A DNA stretch of 64,000 nucleotides, from positions 62,001 through 126,000 of the forward strand of contig JABWBQ010000001.1 in the NCBI GenBank assembly GCA_013360395.1, given 5' to 3'. Source of the DNA: Flavobacteriales bacterium (lineage in GTDB: Bacteria > Bacteroidota > Bacteroidia > Flavobacteriales_F > PHOS-HE28). The position numbers and the translations under genes were made by a program. The notes under the pieces are model-generated. The model ran no database searches, was not told the origin of the DNA, and worked only from the letters and a program-made list of their open reading frames with translations. How positions within the stretch are numbered: position 1 is the first letter of the stretch; each line of letters opens with the position of its first letter. Shown piece after piece: positions 36,860 through 46,789 of this stretch.

Positions 36860-38262
36860 GCACGGCCACCAGGATCACACCCGAGCAAGTGGAGGGCGCC
36901 ATGCGCATCGAACACGCAAGGCCCACCGCCGAGGTGGTGGTACCGCCATTCCCGCTGGAGGCGCTCCCCGAACTGCTGGCTGATTACGCCCGAGAGCTGG
37001 AGCGGTTCAACGGCTTCCTCCTGGACTACACCGGAGCGGGCATGCTCTTCGCCGCATGCACGGCGATCGGGAACGCCGCACACCTTCAGGTGAAAGAGGG
37101 CTACACAGTACCGCCCATGCTTTGGCTGGTGAGCGTCGGGCGCCCGTCCATCGGAAAGACCCACCCGCTTAATGCCATGGTGAAGCCCTTGGCCAAGCGG
37201 GATGCACGCACCAAGCGCGAACACGATACCAGGGTGAGGGAATGGGAATCCGCTCAGGAGGATCGCCGTAAGCGAAAGGGCGGCAAGGATGCCCCACCGG
37301 AGGAACCGCCTTCACCTCGGCCTGTATGGCGCCCCCACCTTGTGGACGATATCACCATGGAGGCGCTGCTGGCCAAGCTGGCGGCAACGCCCCGAGGGGT
37401 GGGCCTGCATTGCGATGAGCTAGGCGGATGGCTGGCAGGGATGGACAAGTACCGCAAGGGTGGGGACCGCCAAAAGTGGCTTTCCATCTTCAATGGATCC
37501 CAGCTCAGCGAGATCCGAAAGACGGCTGGGGAGCATGTTGTGCGCCTTCCGTTCGTGGCCGTAGCTGGTGGGGTGCAACCAGGCAAGCTGCATGACCTCG
37601 GCCGCGATCATGACGGCTTCCTCCACCGCCTGTTGTTCGTGTATCCCGATGAGCAGTTGAGGCGTTACGCATCCAAGTTATCGGTGAACGCTGCATGGGG
37701 CGAGACATGGGACAGAGTGCTGGAGCAACTGCTGGAGCTGGAAATGCGCACGGTGGATGGGGAGCTGGAACCGATCCTGATGCACTACACCGAAGCCGCC
37801 GCCGAGGTATACGCCCGATGGGACCGAATGAACACGGACCGCACGAACGCCGCGAATGCGTCCGGCGATGAGCTAAGCGCCGCCCTCTTCGGCAAGCTGG
37901 ACACCTATGCCCACCGGCTGGCCTTGGTGCTGGAACTATTGCACCGGGCATGCACGGGCGAAGGCCATGCCCGAGAGGTGAGGGCTGAAGCCGTGGAGGG
38001 TGCGCTGAAGCTGCTGGAGTACTTCGAGGCTTGTGCAAGGAAAGTGCATTTCCAGCTCTTCGAGGCCGATGCCGTGGACCGTTTGCCGCCACTGAAGGGC
38101 CGCGTTTACGCCGCCCTGCCTGAGCGCTTCACCACTGGCGAGGGCACCCATATCGCCCAGGCGATGGGTATGCCGCCCTCCACCTTCAAGCGCCTGTTGA
38201 GGGATGGGCACCTCTTCCGCAAGGCCCGCCACGGGGTGAACGTGAAGCTGAAGGACGCATGA
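36856..38262 (+). CDS. DUF3987 domain protein (replication ATPase)
   Basis: A 468-residue P-loop protein of the DUF3987 group, common in Bacteroidota integrative elements and thought to act as the helicase part of their replication module. Walker A is SVGRPSIGKTHPL (about residues 94-101); the Walker B-like segment is GVGLHCDELGGWLAGMD. Other family features: KWLSIFNGSQLSEIRKTAGE, FVAVAGGVQPGKL and DGFLHRLLFVYPD. The C-terminal ~60 residues contain a helix-turn-helix-like part (IAQAMGMPPSTFKRLLRDGH). It overlaps the previous and next ORFs by 4 bases. Confidence 0.88.
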   Translation: MSTATRITPEQVEGAMRIEHARPTAEVVVPPFPLEALPELLADYARELERFNGFLLDYTGAGMLFAACTAIGNAAHLQVKEGYTVPPMLWLVSVGRPSIGKTHPLNAMVKPLAKRDARTKREHDTRVREWESAQEDRRKRKGGKDAPPEEPPSPRPVWRPHLVDDITMEALLAKLAATPRGVGLHCDELGGWLAGMDKYRKGGDRQKWLSIFNGSQLSEIRKTAGEHVVRLPFVAVAGGVQPGKLHDLGRDHDGFLHRLLFVYPDEQLRRYASKLSVNAAWGETWDRVLEQLLELEMRTVDGELEPILMHYTEAAAEVYARWDRMNTDRTNAANASGDELSAALFGKLDTYAHRLALVLELLHRACTGEGHAREVRAEAVEGALKLLEYFEACARKVHFQLFEADAVDRLPPLKGRVYAALPERFTTGEGTHIAQAMGMPPSTFKRLLRDGHLFRKARHGVNVKLKDA

Positions 38263-38501
38263 GCTACACGATACCCATGGACTTTTTGGCCTTTTTGGTC
38301 CTTTCCGCCATGGGCGCGGGATTCGGAGGGTATACGGGTGGTCCTTTCGTGGTCCTTTGGTCCTTTCGGATGTGGTGGCAAAGGACCACTTGGACCATGA
38401 AAAGACCACCCCATACCTCGGGAAATGCTTATCCCCGTAGCAAAGGACCAAAAGACCAAAAGGACCACACCTCTAACATGCACACCGATGGCCGTGGCTG
38501 A
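38259..38501 (+). CDS. Small ORF spanning the repeat cluster (doubtful gene)
   Basis: An 80-codon frame that starts with an ATGA overlap to the DUF3987 gene. It has one hydrophobic stretch (MDFLAFLVLSAMGAGFGGYT) and then low-complexity sequence dictated by the GGTCCTTT and AAAGGACC repeats. The overlap favours translation, while the repeat-driven C-terminal half argues against a folded protein. It could be a leader-like peptide or chance. Confidence 0.3.
   Translation: MSYTIPMDFLAFLVLSAMGAGFGGYTGGPFVVLWSFRMWWQRTTWTMKRPPHTSGNAYPRSKGPKDQKDHTSNMHTDGRG
38288..38466. repeat. Iteron-like cluster of GGTCCTTT in both orientations
   Basis: Exact GGTCCTTT occurs at 38297, 38340, 38351 and 38359 on the plus strand, the last two directly in tandem. 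Exact AAAGGACC (the reverse complement) occurs at 38380, 38442 and 38459. Degenerate copies lie at 38288, 38390, 38401 and 38451. Plus copies are all on the left and inverted copies all on the right, with the switch near 38368-38379. The location between the ATPase and primase-type genes of an excisable element suggests a replication origin or an operator. Confidence 0.75.
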
Positions 38502-39564
38502 GGCACACCGCTACACCCTGGAACGCTACACCGGACCGAGATCGAAGCACACATGCCCGAGCTGTGGGCACCGGCGATGCTTCAAGCGCTACGTGGATTC
38601 GGCCACCGGTGAGCACCTCGCCGAGCATGTAGGGCGATGCGATCGGGAGGACCGATGCGCCCACCATGTGAAGCCCCGCGAATATTTCGCCGCTGGTGGT
38701 GAGCGCCCATCGGGAGAATGGACACCGCCACCGATGCCGCCCGAGCTTCCCGGCTACCGGATGGCCCGCGAAGATGTACGCCACACCGTGGGCAAGCCTT
38801 GCCACCTGCTGGAATACCTCAGCGCCAAGGCCGGGCTGGATGCTGAGCAGGTGAAGCGCACCGCGTGGGAGTATTGCGTGGGCGGCTGGCCTGAGCCGGG
38901 CAAGTACCTCGGCGCTGCCGCCTTTTGGCAGGTGGACCGTGCCGGGCAAGTACGCACCGCGAAAGTGGTGCAATACGATCCCAGCAACGGCCACCGCGTG
39001 AAGGGTGCCGCATCGTGGGCACATGCCTTAGCTGGTGGCATCCCCGAGGGCTTCCGCCTGGATCAATGCCTCTTCGGTGAGCACCTGCTGGACAAGTACC
39101 CCGAGGCGCCCGTGGGCATCGTGGAGGCGGAGAAAACGGCCCTTGTGGCACGGCTGCTGGTGCCTTCGGTCCTATGGCTGGCCGTGGGTGGCCTTGGTGA
39201 GCTGAAGCTGAGCAAGCTCCTACCATTGGCAGGCCGTCACGTTACCCTGTGGCCCGACCTCGGCAAGGGCTTCACGGAATGGAGCGCCAAGGCATCCGAG
39301 CTGGCCCCGCTCTTCACTTCGCTGAAGGTTGCGGACCTGCTGGAAAGGGTGGCCACCGATGCCGAGCGGGAGCAAGGGCTGGACTTGGCCGATTACCTAT
39401 TGAGCCGAAGCGCTGAAGAGCAGGTCATGCCGAAGGCGCCGCCCCCGGAACGCATTGCCGCCGAAGTACTGGCCTTCATGCAGCGGCACCCGGCATGCCA
39501 AGTGCTGGCCGATGAGGTGGACATGGATCTGTCCGCTGCAATAGTCCAACCTCTACCTGCCTAG
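38488..39564 (+). CDS. Zinc-finger/Toprim-like primase-type protein (DUF6371-like)
   Basis: A 358-residue protein. The N-terminal zinc finger has CPSCGHRRCFKRYVD, then HVGRCDREDRCAHH (about residues 22-60), as in primase-type DNA-binding fingers. The C-terminal half has a Toprim-like pattern: VGIVEAEKTALVARLLVPS (Glu near the first strand), VLWLAVGGLGELKLSKLLPL and HVTLWPDLGKGFTEW (acidic D-x-G). Pairing with DUF3987 is typical of Bacteroidota element replication modules. The start at 38488 is chosen because it lies just beyond the repeat cluster; 38425 is possible. Expected role: priming replication of the excised element. Confidence 0.8.
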   Translation: MAVAEAHRYTLERYTGPRSKHTCPSCGHRRCFKRYVDSATGEHLAEHVGRCDREDRCAHHVKPREYFAAGGERPSGEWTPPPMPPELPGYRMAREDVRHTVGKPCHLLEYLSAKAGLDAEQVKRTAWEYCVGGWPEPGKYLGAAAFWQVDRAGQVRTAKVVQYDPSNGHRVKGAASWAHALAGGIPEGFRLDQCLFGEHLLDKYPEAPVGIVEAEKTALVARLLVPSVLWLAVGGLGELKLSKLLPLAGRHVTLWPDLGKGFTEWSAKASELAPLFTSLKVADLLERVATDAEREQGLDLADYLLSRSAEEQVMPKAPPPERIAAEVLAFMQRHPACQVLADEVDMDLSAAIVQPLPA

Positions 39565-39567
39565 ACA

Positions 39568-40191
39568 ATGGGACGCAGCTATACCGGTAGTTCCACGGTT
39601 TACGAATGCCCACGGCTGAATCTATCCCAGCTCCGGAGGGCGGGCTACTTCAGCAAGGATGCCGAGGTCCGGGGAGCGTGGAGCTGGACTAGCGGGGAGG
39701 TGGTGAACATCACCACGGTGGGCAAGGGGGCTGAGGTCCACATGGAACTGAGCTACACCTGGACCGATCCCTACACGGGCAAGCCGGAAGAGGTCCGGCA
39801 ACGAATCGACATGGTGAGGAAGCCGAGCAACCTCGGCCGGGGGACCGTGCTCTACTTCCTCTGCCCATACACAGGACGTCCGTGCCGAATCCTCTACCGT
39901 GCATATTCCGCCCGTACGTACCGCAGTAGGTGGGGCTTCAGCTACCGGCTCTATTACCCCGGCCAAGTGTGCGGCAAGCTGGACCGATGGAACACCCGCT
40001 ATTGGGACCTGGAGCGCCACCTGGAGGGCATGGAGCGGATGCGTAGCCCCGGAACCTACCGGGGAAGGCCCACGAAGCGGGCGCAACGTTGGGAGCGCCT
40101 GCTGAGCGAACTGGATCGCATGGAGCTACTCAGGTGGTCCCCGGCATCGTTCCCCAAACGGCTACGGTCCGTGCTATCGGGGAGGTCATAA
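39568..40191 (+). CDS. Unknown Tyr/Arg-rich protein of the tRNA-Met element
   Basis: A 207-residue protein starting 3 bases after the primase-type gene. It is rich in Tyr, Trp and Arg (YFLCPYTGRPCRILYRAYSA, FSYRLYYPGQVCGKLDRWNT) and has two Cys in a CPYTGRPC knuckle that recalls a zinc-binding site. A basic helical end follows. No family is recognised. The strongly basic, aromatic composition would suit nucleic-acid binding, which is inference only. Confidence 0.65.
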   Translation: MGRSYTGSSTVYECPRLNLSQLRRAGYFSKDAEVRGAWSWTSGEVVNITTVGKGAEVHMELSYTWTDPYTGKPEEVRQRIDMVRKPSNLGRGTVLYFLCPYTGRPCRILYRAYSARTYRSRWGFSYRLYYPGQVCGKLDRWNTRYWDLERHLEGMERMRSPGTYRGRPTKRAQRWERLLSELDRMELLRWSPASFPKRLRSVLSGRS

Positions 40192-40211
40192 GTCCTAAGG
40201 AGTTCGGCTAT

Positions 40212-40877
40212 CTATTGCCGACGCGCTGCGCGTTGAAGTAGCCTCCCTGCCTTCCGCTCGGCATCGGCGGCACCAATCGTTAGCACCGTCGAAGCGATTA
40301 GCCCAGCCCCAGCGACGGCACCTCCAATCGCAACGCCGGAATCGGACGAAGCATCCAAGGCAAGGGCAAGCCCAGCCCCGAGAGCAAGTCCACCAAAGCC
40401 AAGAATCGCAGCCGTACCCCGCCGCCTGCCTGCCTCTTCAAGTCGCATTCCAGCAAGCTGGAGCGCTTCAAGGTCCATGGGAACGGACATCATATCCACG
40501 CGGGGCGGTGCATCTATGGGCTTACCATTGGTAACCTCAGGGCGGTAAGCCGTGGGAGTGGCCTCCATTGTGATGTCCAGCGTGGTGGTGAACCCATTCT
40601 GGATCTTCACCTCATACTTCGCAAACGTCAGATAGCCCTCATTCGAGGCCCGGACCATGAACACACCTTTGGGCAGGTGCTCCATGAAGTACCGCCCCTT
40701 GGCATCGGTCCGTGTTGATGCTATCGCGCTGTCCCCGCTCACCACCTCAACAAGCACATGTTCAAGCGGGGCCTGTGTCCGTGTATCTGACACGCTGCCG
40801 GACAACCTCCCCCTCCCATCGTTGCAATAGCTAAGGAGAGGCAGGGCCAAAAGGAGGGTGAGGGCATGGTAGCGCAT
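40212..40877 (-). CDS. Exported protein with carboxypeptidase-regulatory-like domain
   Basis: A 221-residue protein with an N-terminal signal peptide (MRYHALTLLLALPLLSYC); the Cys after LLSY may be lipidated, although Tyr before it is unusual for a lipobox. Residues ~25-110 form a CarboxypepD_reg/Ig-like domain: GSVSDTRTQAPLEHVLVEVV, STRTDAKGRYFMEHLPKGVF and VRASNEGYLTFAKYEV. The C-terminal third has a Gly/Ala-rich hydrophobic segment (GTAAILGFGGLALGAGLALA) and a basic end. It is the only minus-strand gene of the element, probably a cargo gene acting at the cell envelope. Confidence 0.75.
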   Translation of the reverse strand: MRYHALTLLLALPLLSYCNDGRGRLSGSVSDTRTQAPLEHVLVEVVSGDSAIASTRTDAKGRYFMEHLPKGVFMVRASNEGYLTFAKYEVKIQNGFTTTLDITMEATPTAYRPEVTNGKPIDAPPRVDMMSVPMDLEALQLAGMRLEEAGRRRGTAAILGFGGLALGAGLALALDASSDSGVAIGGAVAGAGLIASTVLTIGAADAERKAGRLLQRAARRQ

Positions 40878-40908
40878 GGGCAAGAATTATCTTGCCGAAC
40901 ATACACGA

Positions 40909-41163
40909 ATGGGCGATAAACTCGGCCTCTACGCATTCAACGCCCTGCCCATCGGGGAGCGGGCACAAGCCCTGTGGGACGGCGGGGCCTTCATCGGCGC
41001 CACTGACCACCCCGAGGGGCGAAGCGCCTTCTACACGTTCGCGGACTATTATGTGGAGGTGCTACTGGTGGGCGATCCCGAGCGCATTGTGGAGGTCGTT
41101 CCATTCTACACCGGCCCCAGGCTGGAGCGGATGCTCAGCGTTATCGACGTGACCAAGCTCTGA
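40909..41163 (+). CDS. Small unknown protein of the tRNA-Met element
   Basis: An 84-residue soluble protein starting MGDKLGLYAFNALPIGERAQ. It contains LWDGGAFIGATDHPEGRSAF and YTFADYYVEVLLVGDPERIV, and ends LERMLSVIDVTKL. This pattern is similar to short orphan proteins often found in Bacteroidota mobile elements, but no family or function is assigned. An alternative ATG at 40876 would overlap the start of the divergent exported-protein gene by 2 bases, so 40909 is preferred. Confidence 0.65.
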   Translation: MGDKLGLYAFNALPIGERAQALWDGGAFIGATDHPEGRSAFYTFADYYVEVLLVGDPERIVEVVPFYTGPRLERMLSVIDVTKL

Positions 41164-41166
41164 ACG

Positions 41167-41340
41167 ATGAAGACCGCCCGCCGCATCCTTGAGACCCTCG
41201 GGGGGCTGCTGGTGGACTTCGTGGGCCTCTTCCTCGGCTACCCTGAGCGGGAAGGGGGCCAACGCCGTACCGTTGGGGAGGCCCTCCTTTTCCTCGGCCT
41301 CCTGGCCGTGGTCATGGCCCTTTTCATCACCGCATCCTGA
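41167..41340 (+). CDS. Small single-pass membrane protein of the tRNA-Met element
   Basis: A 57-residue protein starting MKTARRILETLGGLLVDFVG, with a C-terminal hydrophobic segment (ALLFLGLLAVVMALFITAS). It starts 3 bases after the stop of the preceding small gene, which supports co-expression. Function unknown. It is the last gene before the right end of the element. Confidence 0.55.
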   Translation: MKTARRILETLGGLLVDFVGLFLGYPEREGGQRRTVGEALLFLGLLAVVMALFITAS

Positions 41341-41396
41341 AGCGGCCGGAAGCACCCTTCGCGGGCCGATTATTTGCCCCCTTATTTACCCTAGAT

Positions 41397-41433
41397 CTAA
41401 AAGAAGAAGCCCCGGCATTTCGCTCGGGGCCTT
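41397..41433 (-). terminator. Element-borne intrinsic terminator for the restored tRNA-Met
   Basis: On the minus strand GGCCCCGAG, a loop and CCGGGGCT are followed by TCTTCTTTT. It sits 14 bases beyond the 3' end of the tRNA, inside the element, and would replace the host terminator displaced to 33277-33302. Confidence 0.7.
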
Positions 41434-41445
41434 GTCCTTCTAAGA

Positions 41446-41489
41446 GTAGCGCGGGAGAGACTTGAACTCTCGACCTCAGGATTATGAAT
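41446..41489 (-). repeat. attR: 44-base direct repeat within intact tRNA-Met
   Basis: Identical to 33303-33346. It runs from the anticodon loop to one base past the discriminator of the tRNA, which places the strand-exchange region inside the tRNA 3' half. Confidence 0.93.
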
Positions 41490-41520
41490 CCTGCGCTCTG
41501 ACCAGCTGAGCTACCGCGCC
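41447..41520 (-). tRNA. tRNA-Met (anticodon CAT)
   Basis: A 74-base cloverleaf on the minus strand. Acceptor stem GGCGCGG pairs with CCGCGCT (first pair G-U), the D-arm is GCTCAGCTGGTCAGAGC, the anticodon arm is CAGGA-TTCATAA-TCCTG, and the T-arm GAGAG-TTCAAGT-CTCTC follows; the discriminator is A. The first pair and lack of an initiator-type C1-A72 mismatch point to an elongator tRNA-Met, although a tRNA-Ile2 with modified CAT cannot be ruled out by eye. It forms the right boundary of the integrative element. Confidence 0.92.
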
Positions 41521-41696
41521 ATCCTCATGCCCTTCGCACCCGCATCCGGGCGAAAGGGGCGGCAAATATAGCAGCCCGGGGGTCGCCACATCGTTCCACA
41601 ACGAACTGTCGCGCCCATCGCGGGCTCCCGGCGTTGGAGCCCGGGGATGACGGGGATCCTTGCACAGGCGAAAGGAATTTCTACCTTGCCCGGACC

Positions 41697-42944
41697 ATGG
41701 CCAAGTCCCGCACCAGCGCAAAGGCTTCGCGCCGCGAACGCGCGTCCGCCACGAAAAAGGCGGCGCGTCCGGCGCGGTCCGCCGCACCACGGAAGGGGAA
41801 GGCCCCGCCCCGGAAGGCCAAGGCCCGCAAGCACACCGCGGCAAGGTCCGTGACCGCACGGACCGCCCAAGCACGCAAAGGGAGCCGACCCGCCCGGCGC
41901 AAGGAGACGGTGCGGAAACCGGCGGTGCGCGCACAGGCCGCCAAGCGCTCCTCCCCGCCCAGGTCCGCGGTGCGCAAGGCCGTTCCGAACAAGGCGAAGA
42001 AAGCGGGCACGCCAACGCCGCGGAAAGGAACACCGGCCGGACGTACAGCCCCTTTGAAGCGCAAGCCCTCCCCGGTGAAAGCCGCACCCGGAGCGCGAAG
42101 GGCCGCATCGGCCGCGAAAGGACCGGCACGCCGCACCGCGACCCGGCCGGCCGCCAAGCCGACCGGACGGACCAGGCCGACGCGGCCGACAGGCAAGATC
42201 AAGCCACACGCCAAACCGCCGGCACGCACCGCTGCGGCACGCAAACCCGCTCCCCCGCCTGCCAAAAGCACCCCGCCGAAGGTCAAGGCCCAGGCACGGC
42301 CGAAGCAGCCCATCGCCAAGACACCGCCCCGCCCCGTGAAGCCTGCACCGGCGGAACGGGTGGTGAAGAAGCCTGCGCCCCCGGTCGACCAACCCGGCAA
42401 GCCGACCGCAGCACCCACGGGACCGAAGGTGGCCGCAGCACCGAGCACACCGCCCGCACCGCCCAAGCCGGCGCCGCCCGCCCGCAAACCACCGCCCGCA
42501 CCGGTGCATGCCGTGATGATGGGCGTGGAACCCGCCGCCCATCCGGTGCGCCCCCTGCGCCGCGCGTTGAAGGAACGGTACCAGGCCGAGTTCTACATGC
42601 GCTCGACGCCCAACGTGCTCTTCGAGCTGATCAGCACGCCCAGCGGTTTCAGCGAGTGGTTCTGCGACGACGTGAACGTGCGGGGCGACGAATACGCCTT
42701 CGAGTGGGACGGCGAGGTGCAGAAGGCCCTGTGCATCGGCCGCCGGACGGGAGAGTTGATGCGTTTCCGCTGGATCGACGACGAGGACCCCGGCGCCTTC
42801 TTCGAACTGCGCATCCGCATCGACCCCATGACGAATGATGTGGCCTTGGTGGTGACCGACCACGCCTGGCCGCAGGACCTGGAGCGTGCACGCCAGCTCT
42901 GGGCCTCGCAGGTGGCCCATCTCATGCGGGTGATCGGCTCCTGA
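41697..42944 (+). CDS. START-like domain protein with a 270-residue histone H1-like basic region
   Basis: A 415-residue protein of two very different parts. Residues 1-~270 are Lys/Arg/Ala/Pro-rich without hydrophobic core (AKSRTSAKASRRERASATKK and similar), as in bacterial H1-like or eukaryotic H1 tails. Residues ~292-415 are a complete Bacteroidota START-like domain: YQAEFYMRSTPNVLFELIST, PSGFSEWFCDDVNVRGDEYA, FRWIDDEDPGAFFELRIRID and DVALVVTDHAWPQDLERA. Stand-alone homologues are usually ~125-130 residues. One frame runs through both parts. A TACCTTGC box is 8 bases before the ATG. The basic part should bind DNA or RNA; the START part may bind a ligand. Confidence 0.82.
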   Translation: MAKSRTSAKASRRERASATKKAARPARSAAPRKGKAPPRKAKARKHTAARSVTARTAQARKGSRPARRKETVRKPAVRAQAAKRSSPPRSAVRKAVPNKAKKAGTPTPRKGTPAGRTAPLKRKPSPVKAAPGARRAASAAKGPARRTATRPAAKPTGRTRPTRPTGKIKPHAKPPARTAAARKPAPPPAKSTPPKVKAQARPKQPIAKTPPRPVKPAPAERVVKKPAPPVDQPGKPTAAPTGPKVAAAPSTPPAPPKPAPPARKPPPAPVHAVMMGVEPAAHPVRPLRRALKERYQAEFYMRSTPNVLFELISTPSGFSEWFCDDVNVRGDEYAFEWDGEVQKALCIGRRTGELMRFRWIDDEDPGAFFELRIRIDPMTNDVALVVTDHAWPQDLERARQLWASQVAHLMRVIGS

Positions 42945-42950
42945 GGCCGG

Positions 42951-42958
42951 TACCTTTG
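42951..42958 (+). promoter_or_regulatory. Bacteroidota -7 promoter element (TACCTTTG)
   Basis: Perfect TAnnTTTG 30 bases before the ATG of the LptF/LptG-type permease gene and just after the stop of the START-like gene. Confidence 0.55.
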
Positions 42959-42988
42959 CGCCCGGCGGCACTGCCGCACCCCCTGCCG

Positions 42989-44416
42989 ATGAAGCGCCTG
43001 CACCGCATGATCATCGCGGCCTACCTGGGCCCGTTGGCGGTCACCTTCGGCATCGTGCTCTTCATCCTGAGCATGCAGTTCCTGTGGAAGTACGTGGACG
43101 ACCTGATGGGCAAGGGCCTGCCGTGGCACACCATCACCGAGCTGCTGGTGTACGCCACCGCGAGCTTCGTCCCGCTGGCCCTCCCGCTGGCGGTCCTGCT
43201 CAGCTCGATCATGACCATGGGCGGCCTGGGCGAGAACAGCGAACTGGTGCCGATGCGTTCGGCGGGCCTGCACCTGTTCCGCATCCTGCGCCCCCTGTTC
43301 GTGGTGGTGCTGCTGCTCTCGGGCCTCTCCTTCCTCTTCAGCAACAACGTGCTGCCGGTGGCCAACCTGCGTTTCCACAGCCTGCTGTGGGATGTGACGC
43401 GCAAGAAGCCGGCCATGAACCTGCGCCCGGGTGTGTTCTACAACGGCATCGACGGGCTGAGCATCCGCGTGCGCGACAAGGCCGATGACGGAACCCTGGG
43501 CGATGTCCTCATCTACGACCATCGCGATCCCTTCCAGGGCAACCGCACCGTGGTGCGTGCGCGCAGCGGCACCATGCAGCGCAGCGCCGACGGCGGCAGC
43601 CTGCTGCTCACCCTGCGCGACGGCCACTTCTACGATGCACGCGACCCCTCGGGCGGCAAGGGACACACGGAAGCCATGGTGCATGGCACCTTCGCCACGG
43701 ATGTGCTGCGGCTGGACCTCAGCGGTCTGGGCCTGAAGCGCACCGACGAGGACCTGTTCCGGGACAACTACAAGATGCAGACCATCGGACAGCTGTCGCG
43801 CACGGAGGACTCGCTGGCCGCGGCGTACGCCGAGCGCAAGGTCATGCAGGAAGGCTACCTGCACAACGCCTTCCGCCCGTTGCGCGGCCATGCACCGGGC
43901 GCCGCCACGGCCAGGGCGGCCGGCGGGAACGCCCCGCAGGCCGCGGCCCTGTACGACCAGGCCATCGACATGGCGCGTGCCACCATGACCTTCCTGGAAC
44001 GCACCGAAGAGGAGCGCACCGCCGCCCGCGAACAGATCGCCCGGCACCAGGTGGAATGGCACCGCAAGCCCATGCTCGCCGTAGCCTGCCTGATCTTCTT
44101 CTTCATCGGCGCGCCGCTGGGCGCCATCATCCGCAAAGGCGGCATGGGCCTGCCCACGGTGTTCGCCATCGTCTTCTTCCTGATCTTCCACATCGTCTCC
44201 TTCAGCACCGAGAAGCTCGTCATCAGCCTGAAACTGCCGGCCTGGCCCGGCATGTGGATCAGCACCTTGGTGCTGCTGCCCATCGGGCTCTGGCTCACCT
44301 GGAAGGCGGCCACCGACAGCCCGCTGTTGGACCGCGATGCCTATTATCGCGGCTGGGACCGGCTCCGGTCCCTGTTGCGCGGACGGCGCGATGCGTATCC
44401 TTCAACTGTGCCATAA
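42989..44416 (+). CDS. LptF/LptG family permease (YjgP/YjgQ) of LPS export
   Basis: A 475-residue inner membrane protein. Three N-terminal helices (KRLHRMIIAAYLGPLAVTFG; LLVYATASFVPLALPLAVLL; FRILRPLFVVVLLLSGLSFL) are followed by a periplasmic jellyroll-type domain (~120-360) and three C-terminal helices (MLAVACLIFFFIGAPLGAII; FAIVFFLIFHIVSFSTEKLV; WISTLVLLPIGLWLTWKAA). GAPLGAIIRKGGMGLP is a strong family signature. Bacteroidota members are longer than the ~360-residue proteobacterial proteins. Together with LptB and a partner it lifts LPS from the inner membrane to the periplasmic bridge. The next gene starts inside its last 26 bases. Confidence 0.9.
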   Translation: MKRLHRMIIAAYLGPLAVTFGIVLFILSMQFLWKYVDDLMGKGLPWHTITELLVYATASFVPLALPLAVLLSSIMTMGGLGENSELVPMRSAGLHLFRILRPLFVVVLLLSGLSFLFSNNVLPVANLRFHSLLWDVTRKKPAMNLRPGVFYNGIDGLSIRVRDKADDGTLGDVLIYDHRDPFQGNRTVVRARSGTMQRSADGGSLLLTLRDGHFYDARDPSGGKGHTEAMVHGTFATDVLRLDLSGLGLKRTDEDLFRDNYKMQTIGQLSRTEDSLAAAYAERKVMQEGYLHNAFRPLRGHAPGAATARAAGGNAPQAAALYDQAIDMARATMTFLERTEEERTAAREQIARHQVEWHRKPMLAVACLIFFFIGAPLGAIIRKGGMGLPTVFAIVFFLIFHIVSFSTEKLVISLKLPAWPGMWISTLVLLPIGLWLTWKAATDSPLLDRDAYYRGWDRLRSLLRGRRDAYPSTVP

Positions 44417-45590
44417 GCCCCCCTTCCCGCCCATCGACGGCGGCAGCAAGGCCATGCACAACCTCACGCGTGGTCTGCTGGCGGACGGGCACGCCGTGAA
44501 GGTGCTGTGCATCCACACCCCCAAGCACCCCTTCGACCCCGACGCGCTGCCGGCGGACTATGTGGAGGCCACCGGCGTGCAGGGCGTGTTCGTGGACACA
44601 CGCCTCAACGTGGTGGACGCCTTCACCGACCTGATCACGGCGGACAACTACAACATCAGCCGGTTCTTCTCCCCGGACATGGACATCGCGCTGATCCGTG
44701 TGCTGAGCGCGCAGGCCTTCGACGTGGTGCTGCTCGAGAGCCTGTTCATGACCCCCTACATCGCCACCATCCGCCGCTATTCGGACGCCCGGGTGGTGCT
44801 GCGCTCCCACAACCTGGAGCACGTGCTGCAGGAGCGCATCGCCAGCGGTGAGCGCAACCCCATCAAACGCCCATACCGCCGCTTCCTTGCCCGGCAGTTG
44901 AAGGAGTACGAGATGGCCGTGCTGGACCGGGTGGACGGCGTGGCCGCCATCAGCCCTGCGGATGCCGCGCACTTCGAGGCCCACGGCACACGCACGCCCG
45001 TGGCCACGGTCCCCTTCGGGGTGGACCCCGCCGAGCACGACCGCCCGCTGCCCGGCGGCCGCACCGTGTTCTTCCACCTGGGCAGCATGGACTGGGAGCC
45101 CAACCTGGAGGGGGTGCGCTGGCTGGTGGCGGAGGTGTGGCCGCGGATCATCGCCCGGCATCCCGAGGCCCGTCTGCACCTGGCCGGCAACCGCATGCCC
45201 GAGGACCTGCTGCACCTGGAGCTGCCCGGCCTGCAGGTGAAGGGGCGCGTGAAGAGCGCCGAACAGTACATCGCCGACCGCCATGTGATGGTGGTGCCCC
45301 TGCACAGCGGCGGCGGCATGCGTGTGAAGATCATCGAGGGCATGGCCATGGGGCGCTGCGTGATCAGCACCACCATCGGGGCCGAGGGCATCGCCGTCAC
45401 CGACGGGCATGACATCCTGCTGGCCGACACGCCCGCCGCCTTCGCCCGGCAGATGGCGCGCACCCTGGACGAACCGGGGCTGGTGGCCACCCTCGGCGCC
45501 AACGCCCGCGCCACCATCGCGGCCCGTTACAGCGACAGCCGCATCATCGCCGACCTGGTGGCCTTCCTCCGCAGCCTGAAGCGCGCATGA
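44391..45590 (+). CDS. Glycosyltransferase family 4
   Basis: A 399-residue GT-B enzyme starting MRILQLCHKPPFPPIDGGSK; the DGGSKAMHNLTRGLL loop is the acceptor-side motif. The linker and second domain carry TVPFGVDPAEHDRPL, HLGSMDWEPNLEGVRWLVAE and HSGGGMRVKIIEGMAMGRCV (nucleotide-sugar binding with the E-x7-E pattern). It overlaps the permease gene by 26 bases and is itself followed by another glycosyltransferase with a 4-base overlap. The setting next to an LPS-export permease suggests a role in LPS or O-antigen-like glycan assembly, which is inference. Confidence 0.9.
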   Translation: MRILQLCHKPPFPPIDGGSKAMHNLTRGLLADGHAVKVLCIHTPKHPFDPDALPADYVEATGVQGVFVDTRLNVVDAFTDLITADNYNISRFFSPDMDIALIRVLSAQAFDVVLLESLFMTPYIATIRRYSDARVVLRSHNLEHVLQERIASGERNPIKRPYRRFLARQLKEYEMAVLDRVDGVAAISPADAAHFEAHGTRTPVATVPFGVDPAEHDRPLPGGRTVFFHLGSMDWEPNLEGVRWLVAEVWPRIIARHPEARLHLAGNRMPEDLLHLELPGLQVKGRVKSAEQYIADRHVMVVPLHSGGGMRVKIIEGMAMGRCVISTTIGAEGIAVTDGHDILLADTPAAFARQMARTLDEPGLVATLGANARATIAARYSDSRIIADLVAFLRSLKRA

Positions 45591-46789
45591 GGCTGCTGGT
45601 CCTGCTCTCGCGCGTGCCCTATCCGCTGGAAAAAGGCGACAAGTTGCGCGCCTACCACCTGGTGAAACGCCTGGCCGAGCGCCACGAGGTGCTGCTGCTC
45701 TGCCTGAGCGACCAGCACATCCAGCAGGCCCATCTGGAACACCTGCGCAGCTTCTGCCACCACCTGGAAGTGATCCACCTGCCGCGCTGGCGCATCGTCT
45801 GGAAGCTCATCACCGCCGTCTTCTCCCGCCTCCCCTTCCAGGTGGCCTACTTCCACCATGCCGCCGCGCAACGCCGTGTGGACGCCCTCATCCAACGCTT
45901 CAAGCCCGACCACGTGCTGTGCCAGCTGGTGCGCACCACCGAATACGTGCGCTGGCACCTCACCATGCCCAAGACGCTGGACTACATGGACACCCTGAGC
46001 AAGGGCATGGAGCGCCGCACGGAGACCTCGAGCCCGTTGCTGCGCCCGCTGTTGATGACCGAGACGCGCCGCCTGCAGGCCTACGAGAACCTGATGTTCG
46101 ACCTGTTCGACCACCGCATCATCATCTCGGCCCAGGACCGCGATTACCTGTACCATCCCGAGCGCCACCGCATGACGGTGATCCCCAACGGGGTGGACAC
46201 CGCGCACTTCCACCCGATCGGCGGCGAGGTGACGCACGACCTGCTGTTCACCGGCAACATGAACTACCCGCCGAACATCGACAGCGTGCTGTACCTGGTG
46301 CACAAGGTGCTGCCGCTGGTGCGTCGTGAACGGCCGGGGGTCTCGCTGTTGATCAGCGGGGTGGACCCCAGCCCCCGGGTGCGGCAGCTGGCCGAGGCGG
46401 ACCCGCGGATCACCGTCACCGGCTGGGTGCGCGACATACGCACCAGCTACATGTCGGCGCGGATCTTCGTGGCGCCGATGCAGATCGGCACCGGCCTGCA
46501 GAACAAGCTGCTGGAGGCCATGGCCATGGGCATGCCCTGCATCACCTCGGCCCTGGCCAACAACGCCGTGGGGGCCACTCCGGGCGAAGGCATCCTGATC
46601 GGCCACGGCCCGGCCGACTACGCCGCCCACATCCTGCATCTGCTGGCCGACGAGGAGGAGCGCCGTCGGATCGCCGCCAACGGCCACCGCCACGTGCTGG
46701 CCACCTTCGACTGGGCGCGTGCCGCCGACACCCTCGACGGCCTGATCACCGCCCCCCGCCGCGCGGCGCCACCCCTGCCGATAGGCTAA
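45587..46789 (+). CDS. Glycosyltransferase family 4 (TIGR03087/stp1-like)
   Basis: A 400-residue glycosyltransferase starting [20 protein letters not shown] and continuing [15 protein letters not shown], the opening pattern of a sugar transferase group found in exosortase-type and other exopolysaccharide loci. Further motifs are [56 protein letters not shown] and [20 protein letters not shown]. It overlaps the previous glycosyltransferase gene by 4 bases (ATGA) and probably belongs to the same transcript. Donor and acceptor unknown. Confidence 0.9.

Follow-up and report, generated by a model that had tools for sequence, protein, structure and literature searches.

HU-type proteins, together with a small number of H1-like tails from Pseudomonas, Chlamydia, and myxobacteria, have been the main focus of work on bacterial chromatin. 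The joining of a folded domain to an H1- or HMGA-like tail is a known plan, represented by AlgP, PhaF, and CarD. AlgP and PhaF have bacterial H1-like tails that bind DNA; in AlgP, KPAA-repeat fragments of the CTD bind DNA, and the CTD is needed for the spacing of polyphosphate (polyP) granules (PMC9239181). In CarD, an HMGA-like, DNA-binding tail maximizes the activity of the globular domain (PMC4374960). The pairing of an H1-like tail with a START_2 domain (PF19569), and its spread through the Bacteroidia, appear to be undescribed: our literature search, which reached few subscription journals, returned no paper on PF19569 or on its fusion to such a tail.

The window, that is, the whole stretch of 64,000 nucleotides that was analyzed, contains a plus-strand open reading frame (ORF) at 41697-42944. 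Its frame is open over the full length, translates to 415 residues, and joins a long disordered basic H1-like tail to a START-like domain in one gene. The gene and its surroundings are laid out as follows:

41446..41520, minus strand: tRNA-Met(cat), the upstream neighbor, on the opposite strand to the ORF
41682..41689, plus strand: TACCTTGC, promoter -7-like element (Bacteroidota TAnnTTTG), from the sequence and the consensus in PMC6847099
41697..42944, plus strand: whole coding sequence of a single-copy gene, 415 residues, running from an ATG to a TGA
41697..42569, plus strand: polycationic H1-like tail, predicted to be disordered, residues 1-291, from composition, AlphaFold2, and frame conservation
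42510..42533, plus strand: AVMMGVEP motif, residues 272-279, at the tail-domain junction, conserved within the genus among members of the window's subclade
42570..42941, plus strand: START_2 domain (PF19569) with an SRPBCC/Aha1-like helix-grip fold, residues 292-415, from profile, structure prediction, and Foldseek
42951..42958, plus strand: TACCTTTG, an exact -7 consensus between the ORF and lptF/G, from the sequence and the consensus in PMC6847099
42989..44416, plus strand: LptF/LptG permease, a conserved downstream neighbor of START_2 genes, tailed or bare

Residues 292-414 match the START_2 profile at E 9.8e-34 (116.4 bits against a cut-off of 23.6, profile positions 4-125 of 126), and an AlphaFold2 model of the domain with 60 relatives reaches a pLDDT of 96.6. 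This model has the helix-grip fold: its best Foldseek match is 2lio (E 1.6e-9), which is also matched by sequence (E 2e-19), followed by Aha1 of Colwellia (2m89, E 1.5e-6, TM 0.79) and by many further SRPBCC proteins, including PR-10 and PYR1. Among the near-invariant residues are four Trp (domain positions 31, 47, 69, and 112) and several that are acidic. The AHSA1 profile (PF08327) stays below its cut-off of 22.1 bits for both the whole protein (14.1) and the domain alone (18.4), and is weakly matched in 8 of 23 relatives; the profiles give only START_2 and this weak AHSA1 match for the window protein, with no CarD_CdnL domain. Because the closest characterized relatives of the fold comprise not only ligand binders but also protein-binding domains of the Aha1 type, the "ligand-sensing" role in the original prediction is not supported as it was stated.

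The 291-residue tail is dominated by Ala (22.7%, 66 residues), Pro (20.3%, 59), Arg (13.7%, 40), and Lys (13.4%, 39). Lys and Arg together account for 27% of it and Asp and Glu for 1.7% (5 acidic residues), the net charge is +74, and Phe, Trp, Tyr, and Cys are all absent. A Lys/Arg/Ala/Pro-rich region is thus present as had been claimed, although with 291 rather than 270 residues. Lys or Arg occurs 19 times in the first 50 tail residues and 6 times in the last 41, so that the charge is concentrated away from the domain, which is flanked by a Pro-rich spacer. With 23 full-length relatives, AlphaFold2 gives the tail block a pLDDT of 39-62 and no secondary structure, compared with >90 for the domain, and the tail is predicted to be intrinsically disordered. 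It has the K/P/A-rich, disordered character and KPAA-type composition that define AlgP/PhaF-type tails. Neither HC2 (PF07382) nor Hc1 (PF07432) gives a profile match in the window protein or its own genome, while the HC2 profile is matched by 1 of 23 relatives (E 8.9e-5). A PDB search found no H1 homolog of the tail, and a protein search of the own genome found no second H1-like tail. As far as these searches indicate, the label "H1-like" holds for the composition of the tail and not for its homology, neither HC2 nor any H1 family being matched. Such a composition would be equally compatible with DNA, RNA, the ribosome, polyP, or an anionic membrane as the target.

An open frame by itself is weak evidence for translation here, because four to five of the six frames in this high-GC stretch have few or no stops. 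The START_2 domain is present in 44 of 45 genus genomes, and all matches have the extended frame except two at contig ends (L134 and G331). One of these, L134, was considered as a tail-less genus-mate and rejected, the 5' end of its gene being cut by the contig start. In a frame-agnostic DNA alignment of L003, L004, and L005, every gap is a multiple of 3 (100% in phase), and the difference rates between L004 and L005 at codon positions 1, 2, and 3 are 0.31, 0.19, and 0.39 (order 3>1>2). The dN/dS of the tail is about 0.40-0.51 (for example, 0.348/0.878 for L001-L002), a value readable only as "below 1" because uncertain alignment inflates dS; that of the domain is mostly <0.1. The only nearby internal ATGs of the ORF lie inside the AVMMGVEP motif, where a double ATG (residues 274-275), conserved in the window's subclade and located 17-18 codons before the domain, could serve this subclade as a minor second start. 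Of 30 genus-mates, 11 lack any ATG in the 25 codons preceding the domain, as do 36 of 52 others.

Promoter elements point to the same long start. The Bacteroidota consensus consists of a -7 element, TAnnTTTG, and a -33 element, TTTG (PMC6847099). Upstream of TACCTTGC by ~19 nt, at 41660-41663, lies TTGC, and from this arrangement transcription is predicted to start ~3 nt before the ATG of the long ORF. Within 50 nt before the long ATG, 28 of 39 genus-mates have a -7 element scoring 5 of 6 (shuffles, ~10%), and none of the 39 has one directly before the START domain. Other families have TATATTTC or TATATTGC-type elements, typically about 24-38 nt upstream of the ATG. Frame conservation, a dN/dS below 1, and the extension in all genus-mates with a complete 5' end bear out the original prediction of a translated H1-like region fused to a START-like domain, and support a tail made as part of the protein. 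A start near residue 292, raised at the outset as the counter-case, is unlikely given the conserved frame, the promoter at the long ATG, and the non-conserved internal ATGs, and an untranslated basic region or internal start was rejected on these grounds. An artifact of assembly or of a single genome was also rejected, since the tail recurs in genus-mates and other families.

The exact -7 consensus of TACCTTTG suggests that lptF/G probably has its own promoter. Of the START_2 loci, 45 with the tail (mostly from the window's own genus) and 26 without it are directly followed by lptF/G, which many others lack at this position. The START_2-lptF/G neighborhood is old and independent of the tail, and, together with the separate promoter element, this means that little can be inferred from the adjacency. 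On the other side, window positions 37402-41575 are 99.6% identical to L004, compared with only 87% for the flanking core genes (42485-46000), which indicates an element that was transferred recently and adjoins tRNA-Met(cat); in L002, L003, and L005, the tRNA is the only shared part of this interval. The element lies directly upstream of the ORF and carries a DUF6371/Zn_ribbon_16 protein (38425-39564) and ORFs at 39568-40191, 40876-41163, and 41167-41340. The window also contains an HU gene (PF00216; 28111-28377, plus strand), and a second HU copy is found on another contig of the genome.

Across the class, PF19569 is present in 337 of 396 Bacteroidia genomes, and outside it the family is nearly absent, with one weak match (E 7e-6). 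Bacteroidia-type START_2 genes on L044 (JAUXSJ010000331.1, labeled Parachlamydiaceae) and L069 (CATLPG010000001.1, Saccharospirillaceae) most likely reflect binning contamination. The domain is bare in Bacteroidaceae (Bacteroides), Flavobacteriaceae, and others, in frames of about 126-180 aa with ~128 residues typical. The earlier statement that START-like proteins are normally complete at 125-130 residues therefore applies to Bacteroidaceae and Flavobacteriaceae but not to the tailed families, which number at least 13. Frames of at least 250 aa occur in families f1, f56, f57, f64, f67, f68, f74, f75, f81, f84, f87, f109, and f114, and the representatives of tailed families whose sequences were fetched have Lys-rich tails. 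A Sediminibacterium MAG (L039) is among the tailed genomes, and Flavobacterium johnsoniae is an example of a bare species. The search for the fusion in relatives that the original prediction had advised thus found it in genus-mates and across 13 or more families of Bacteroidia; the combination that it had called new is one for which we found no published description, but it recurs across the Bacteroidia and is not peculiar to this gene.

Tail length ranges from about 50 to 380 residues and sequence turnover is fast; f64 also has shortened tails of about 50-70 residues that are basic and still mostly Lys-rich. Among 95 tails, the mean fraction of K+R is 0.30 (range 0.25-0.44) and that of D+E is 0.04. 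From low- to high-GC3 genomes (domain GC3 averaging 30% and 84% in the two groups), Lys goes from 0.30 to 0.22 and Arg from 0.01 to 0.06. Total charge is therefore held across the GC extremes, by Lys at low GC and by more Arg at high GC, which argues for selection on charge and not on base composition. By this computation, the charge and composition of the tail, rather than its sequence, are under selection. Complementarity with a stand-alone Hc1 was tried and rejected (7 of 35 tailed versus 13 of 36 bare genomes, p = 0.19, not significant).

In a tree of 111 domains, whose deep forks are weak for so short a domain, the tailed state changes 8 times compared with a shuffled mean of 37, a count that may be one too high because L134 was scored bare though truncated. 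The starred branches of this tree force at least four tail gains or losses. By this reckoning, a domain that is otherwise self-sufficient has repeatedly acquired or shed the tail as an add-on. Smith-Waterman comparisons against shuffles, with z reaching 7-10 in the best pairs, show that a basic-acidic-amphipathic segment is common to the domain-adjacent linkers of f68, f75, and f74, even though these families are scattered in the domain tree; neither the window's genus nor f84 has a linker resembling it. A homologous linker in scattered families leads us to favor, as an unproven reading, a tail that is old and was later lost in lineages rather than gained many times.

In f68 (L163, L165, L166, L169, and others), the shared segment lies 70-80 residues upstream of the START domain and comprises a conserved, AT-hook-like GGRKPKKK, then an acidic stretch, and then an amphipathic LIEQLI, an arrangement common to f75 (L158) and f74 (L176). 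This segment, which is absent from the window protein, is a possible partner-binding motif. In L018-L203 (f84 and relatives), a conserved linker, VLAITNTIPK...KIASISSSITNPIKK, lies about 20-45 residues before the domain and looks more like a short linear motif than a spacer.

We propose that the tail tethers the START_2 protein to a cellular polyanion, most likely nucleoid DNA, while START_2 keeps its ancestral job, a proposal whose chances we regard as evenly balanced. The disordered tail would bind the polyanion through its charge and keep START_2, together with whatever it binds, on the chromosome, raising the local concentration. There, START_2 would perform its ancestral job, in which it would bind either a protein partner or a small hydrophobic ligand; in Bacteroides and Flavobacteriaceae, the same job would be done by the untethered domain. 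While anchoring of the window protein to DNA or another negatively charged polymer is probable, DNA binding by the tail is something we infer by analogy, DNA being the most probable target because the described bacterial tails of this kind (AlgP, PhaF, and CarD) bind it. Several points count against a nucleoid tether: the conserved neighbor lptF/G encodes an LPS-export permease and is not a DNA-related gene, the window protein matches neither HC2 nor H1 profiles, its composition does not single out DNA among the polyanions, and the bare domain suffices in many lineages, so that the tail is dispensable for the core function. The more far-reaching idea of a class-wide, undescribed Bacteroidota nucleoid protein, in which a tethered START/Aha1-type sensor or adaptor alters DNA compaction or transcription upon ligand or partner binding, seems to us doubtful.

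The tail could instead bind RNA or the ribosome; START_2 would then act as a protein-binding module of the Aha1 type, in a protein that takes part in translation, in the handling of RNA, or in chaperoning linked to the ribosome. Ribosomal and RNA-binding proteins have basic disordered tails just as typically, the characterized fold relatives include Aha1 (2m89, 6xlb, and 8z3h), and 8 of 23 relatives weakly match AHSA1; however, ribosomal or RNA-related neighbors are not seen around the gene, and the closest described tails of like composition bind DNA, so that we consider this alternative credible but unlikely. It is quite improbable that the tail bridges polyP (or PHA) and the nucleoid and so positions storage granules, as in AlgP and PhaF. 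The composition does resemble that of AlgP, whose CTD is required for granule spacing (PMC9239181), and polyP kinase is encoded in the own genome, but tailed genomes (30 of 35) and bare ones (31 of 36) have the kinase about equally often (Fisher p = 1). Across these 71 genomes, the kinase shows no association with the tail, and a polyP-specific role gains no support; moreover, the PF02503 match is absent from some tailed genomes, and no granule-binding region was identified in the window protein.

Gating of a nucleoid protein by a hydrophobic ligand, which would sit in START_2 and alter DNA binding by the tail, we judge to be improbable to a similar degree: the helix-grip fold is held in common with ligand-binding START, PR-10, and PYR proteins, and the domain has its near-invariant Trp and acidic residues, but the START_2 family has no known ligand, the domain is small (125 aa) and also Aha1-like, and direct allostery is unlikely across a flexible, Pro-rich spacer of >100 residues. 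Finally, the tail might be an unselected, drifting low-complexity extension, or might be left untranslated in the main product through a start at AVMMG or just before the domain. Variable length, quick turnover, and the conserved double ATG of the window's subclade would fit such a reading, which nevertheless becomes very improbable in view of the kept frame, the dN/dS below 1, the steady charge across GC extremes, the missing internal ATGs in many relatives, and the promoter element at the long ATG.

With tethering to a polyanion as our preferred reading, the results suggest that the window gene is an example of an unstudied, widespread protein, encoded by a single-copy Bacteroidia gene whose H1-like tail, reaching almost 400 residues, is carried or has been lost in 13 or more families. 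For its folded domain, a structure has been solved but no function assigned. Natural pairs of tailed and bare orthologs make the contribution of an H1-like tail to a protein testable and offer a first handle on an orphan core gene.

Each of the known systems shares part of this design. Like the window tail, the chlamydial proteins Hc2 and Hc1 have Lys-rich, size-variable basic sequences, but they are stand-alone proteins, and the window protein matches neither model. AlgP (AlgR3) and PhaF of Pseudomonas also carry a disordered K/P/A-rich H1-like tail on a different globular or helical part; their tail, with its KPAA repeats, is C-terminal whereas that of the window protein is N-terminal, their partner part is helical or a phasin and not START-like, and homology to the window protein is not shown. 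In Myxococcus xanthus CarD, a small folded protein-interaction domain is similarly combined with an intrinsically unfolded basic tail, but this domain is a Tudor-like CarD_CdnL domain that binds RNA polymerase, the tail is C-terminal, and the protein is confined to myxobacteria. Aha1/AHSA1 resembles the window domain in its helix-grip fold and weak profile match, at ~12% sequence identity and without a basic tail. The structure-solved PF19569 relatives (2lio, BfR322 of Bacteroides fragilis) share with the window protein the full-length domain, the single copy, and the downstream lptF/G; they are bare, with about 128 residues, and to this plan the window protein adds a basic tail of 291 residues.
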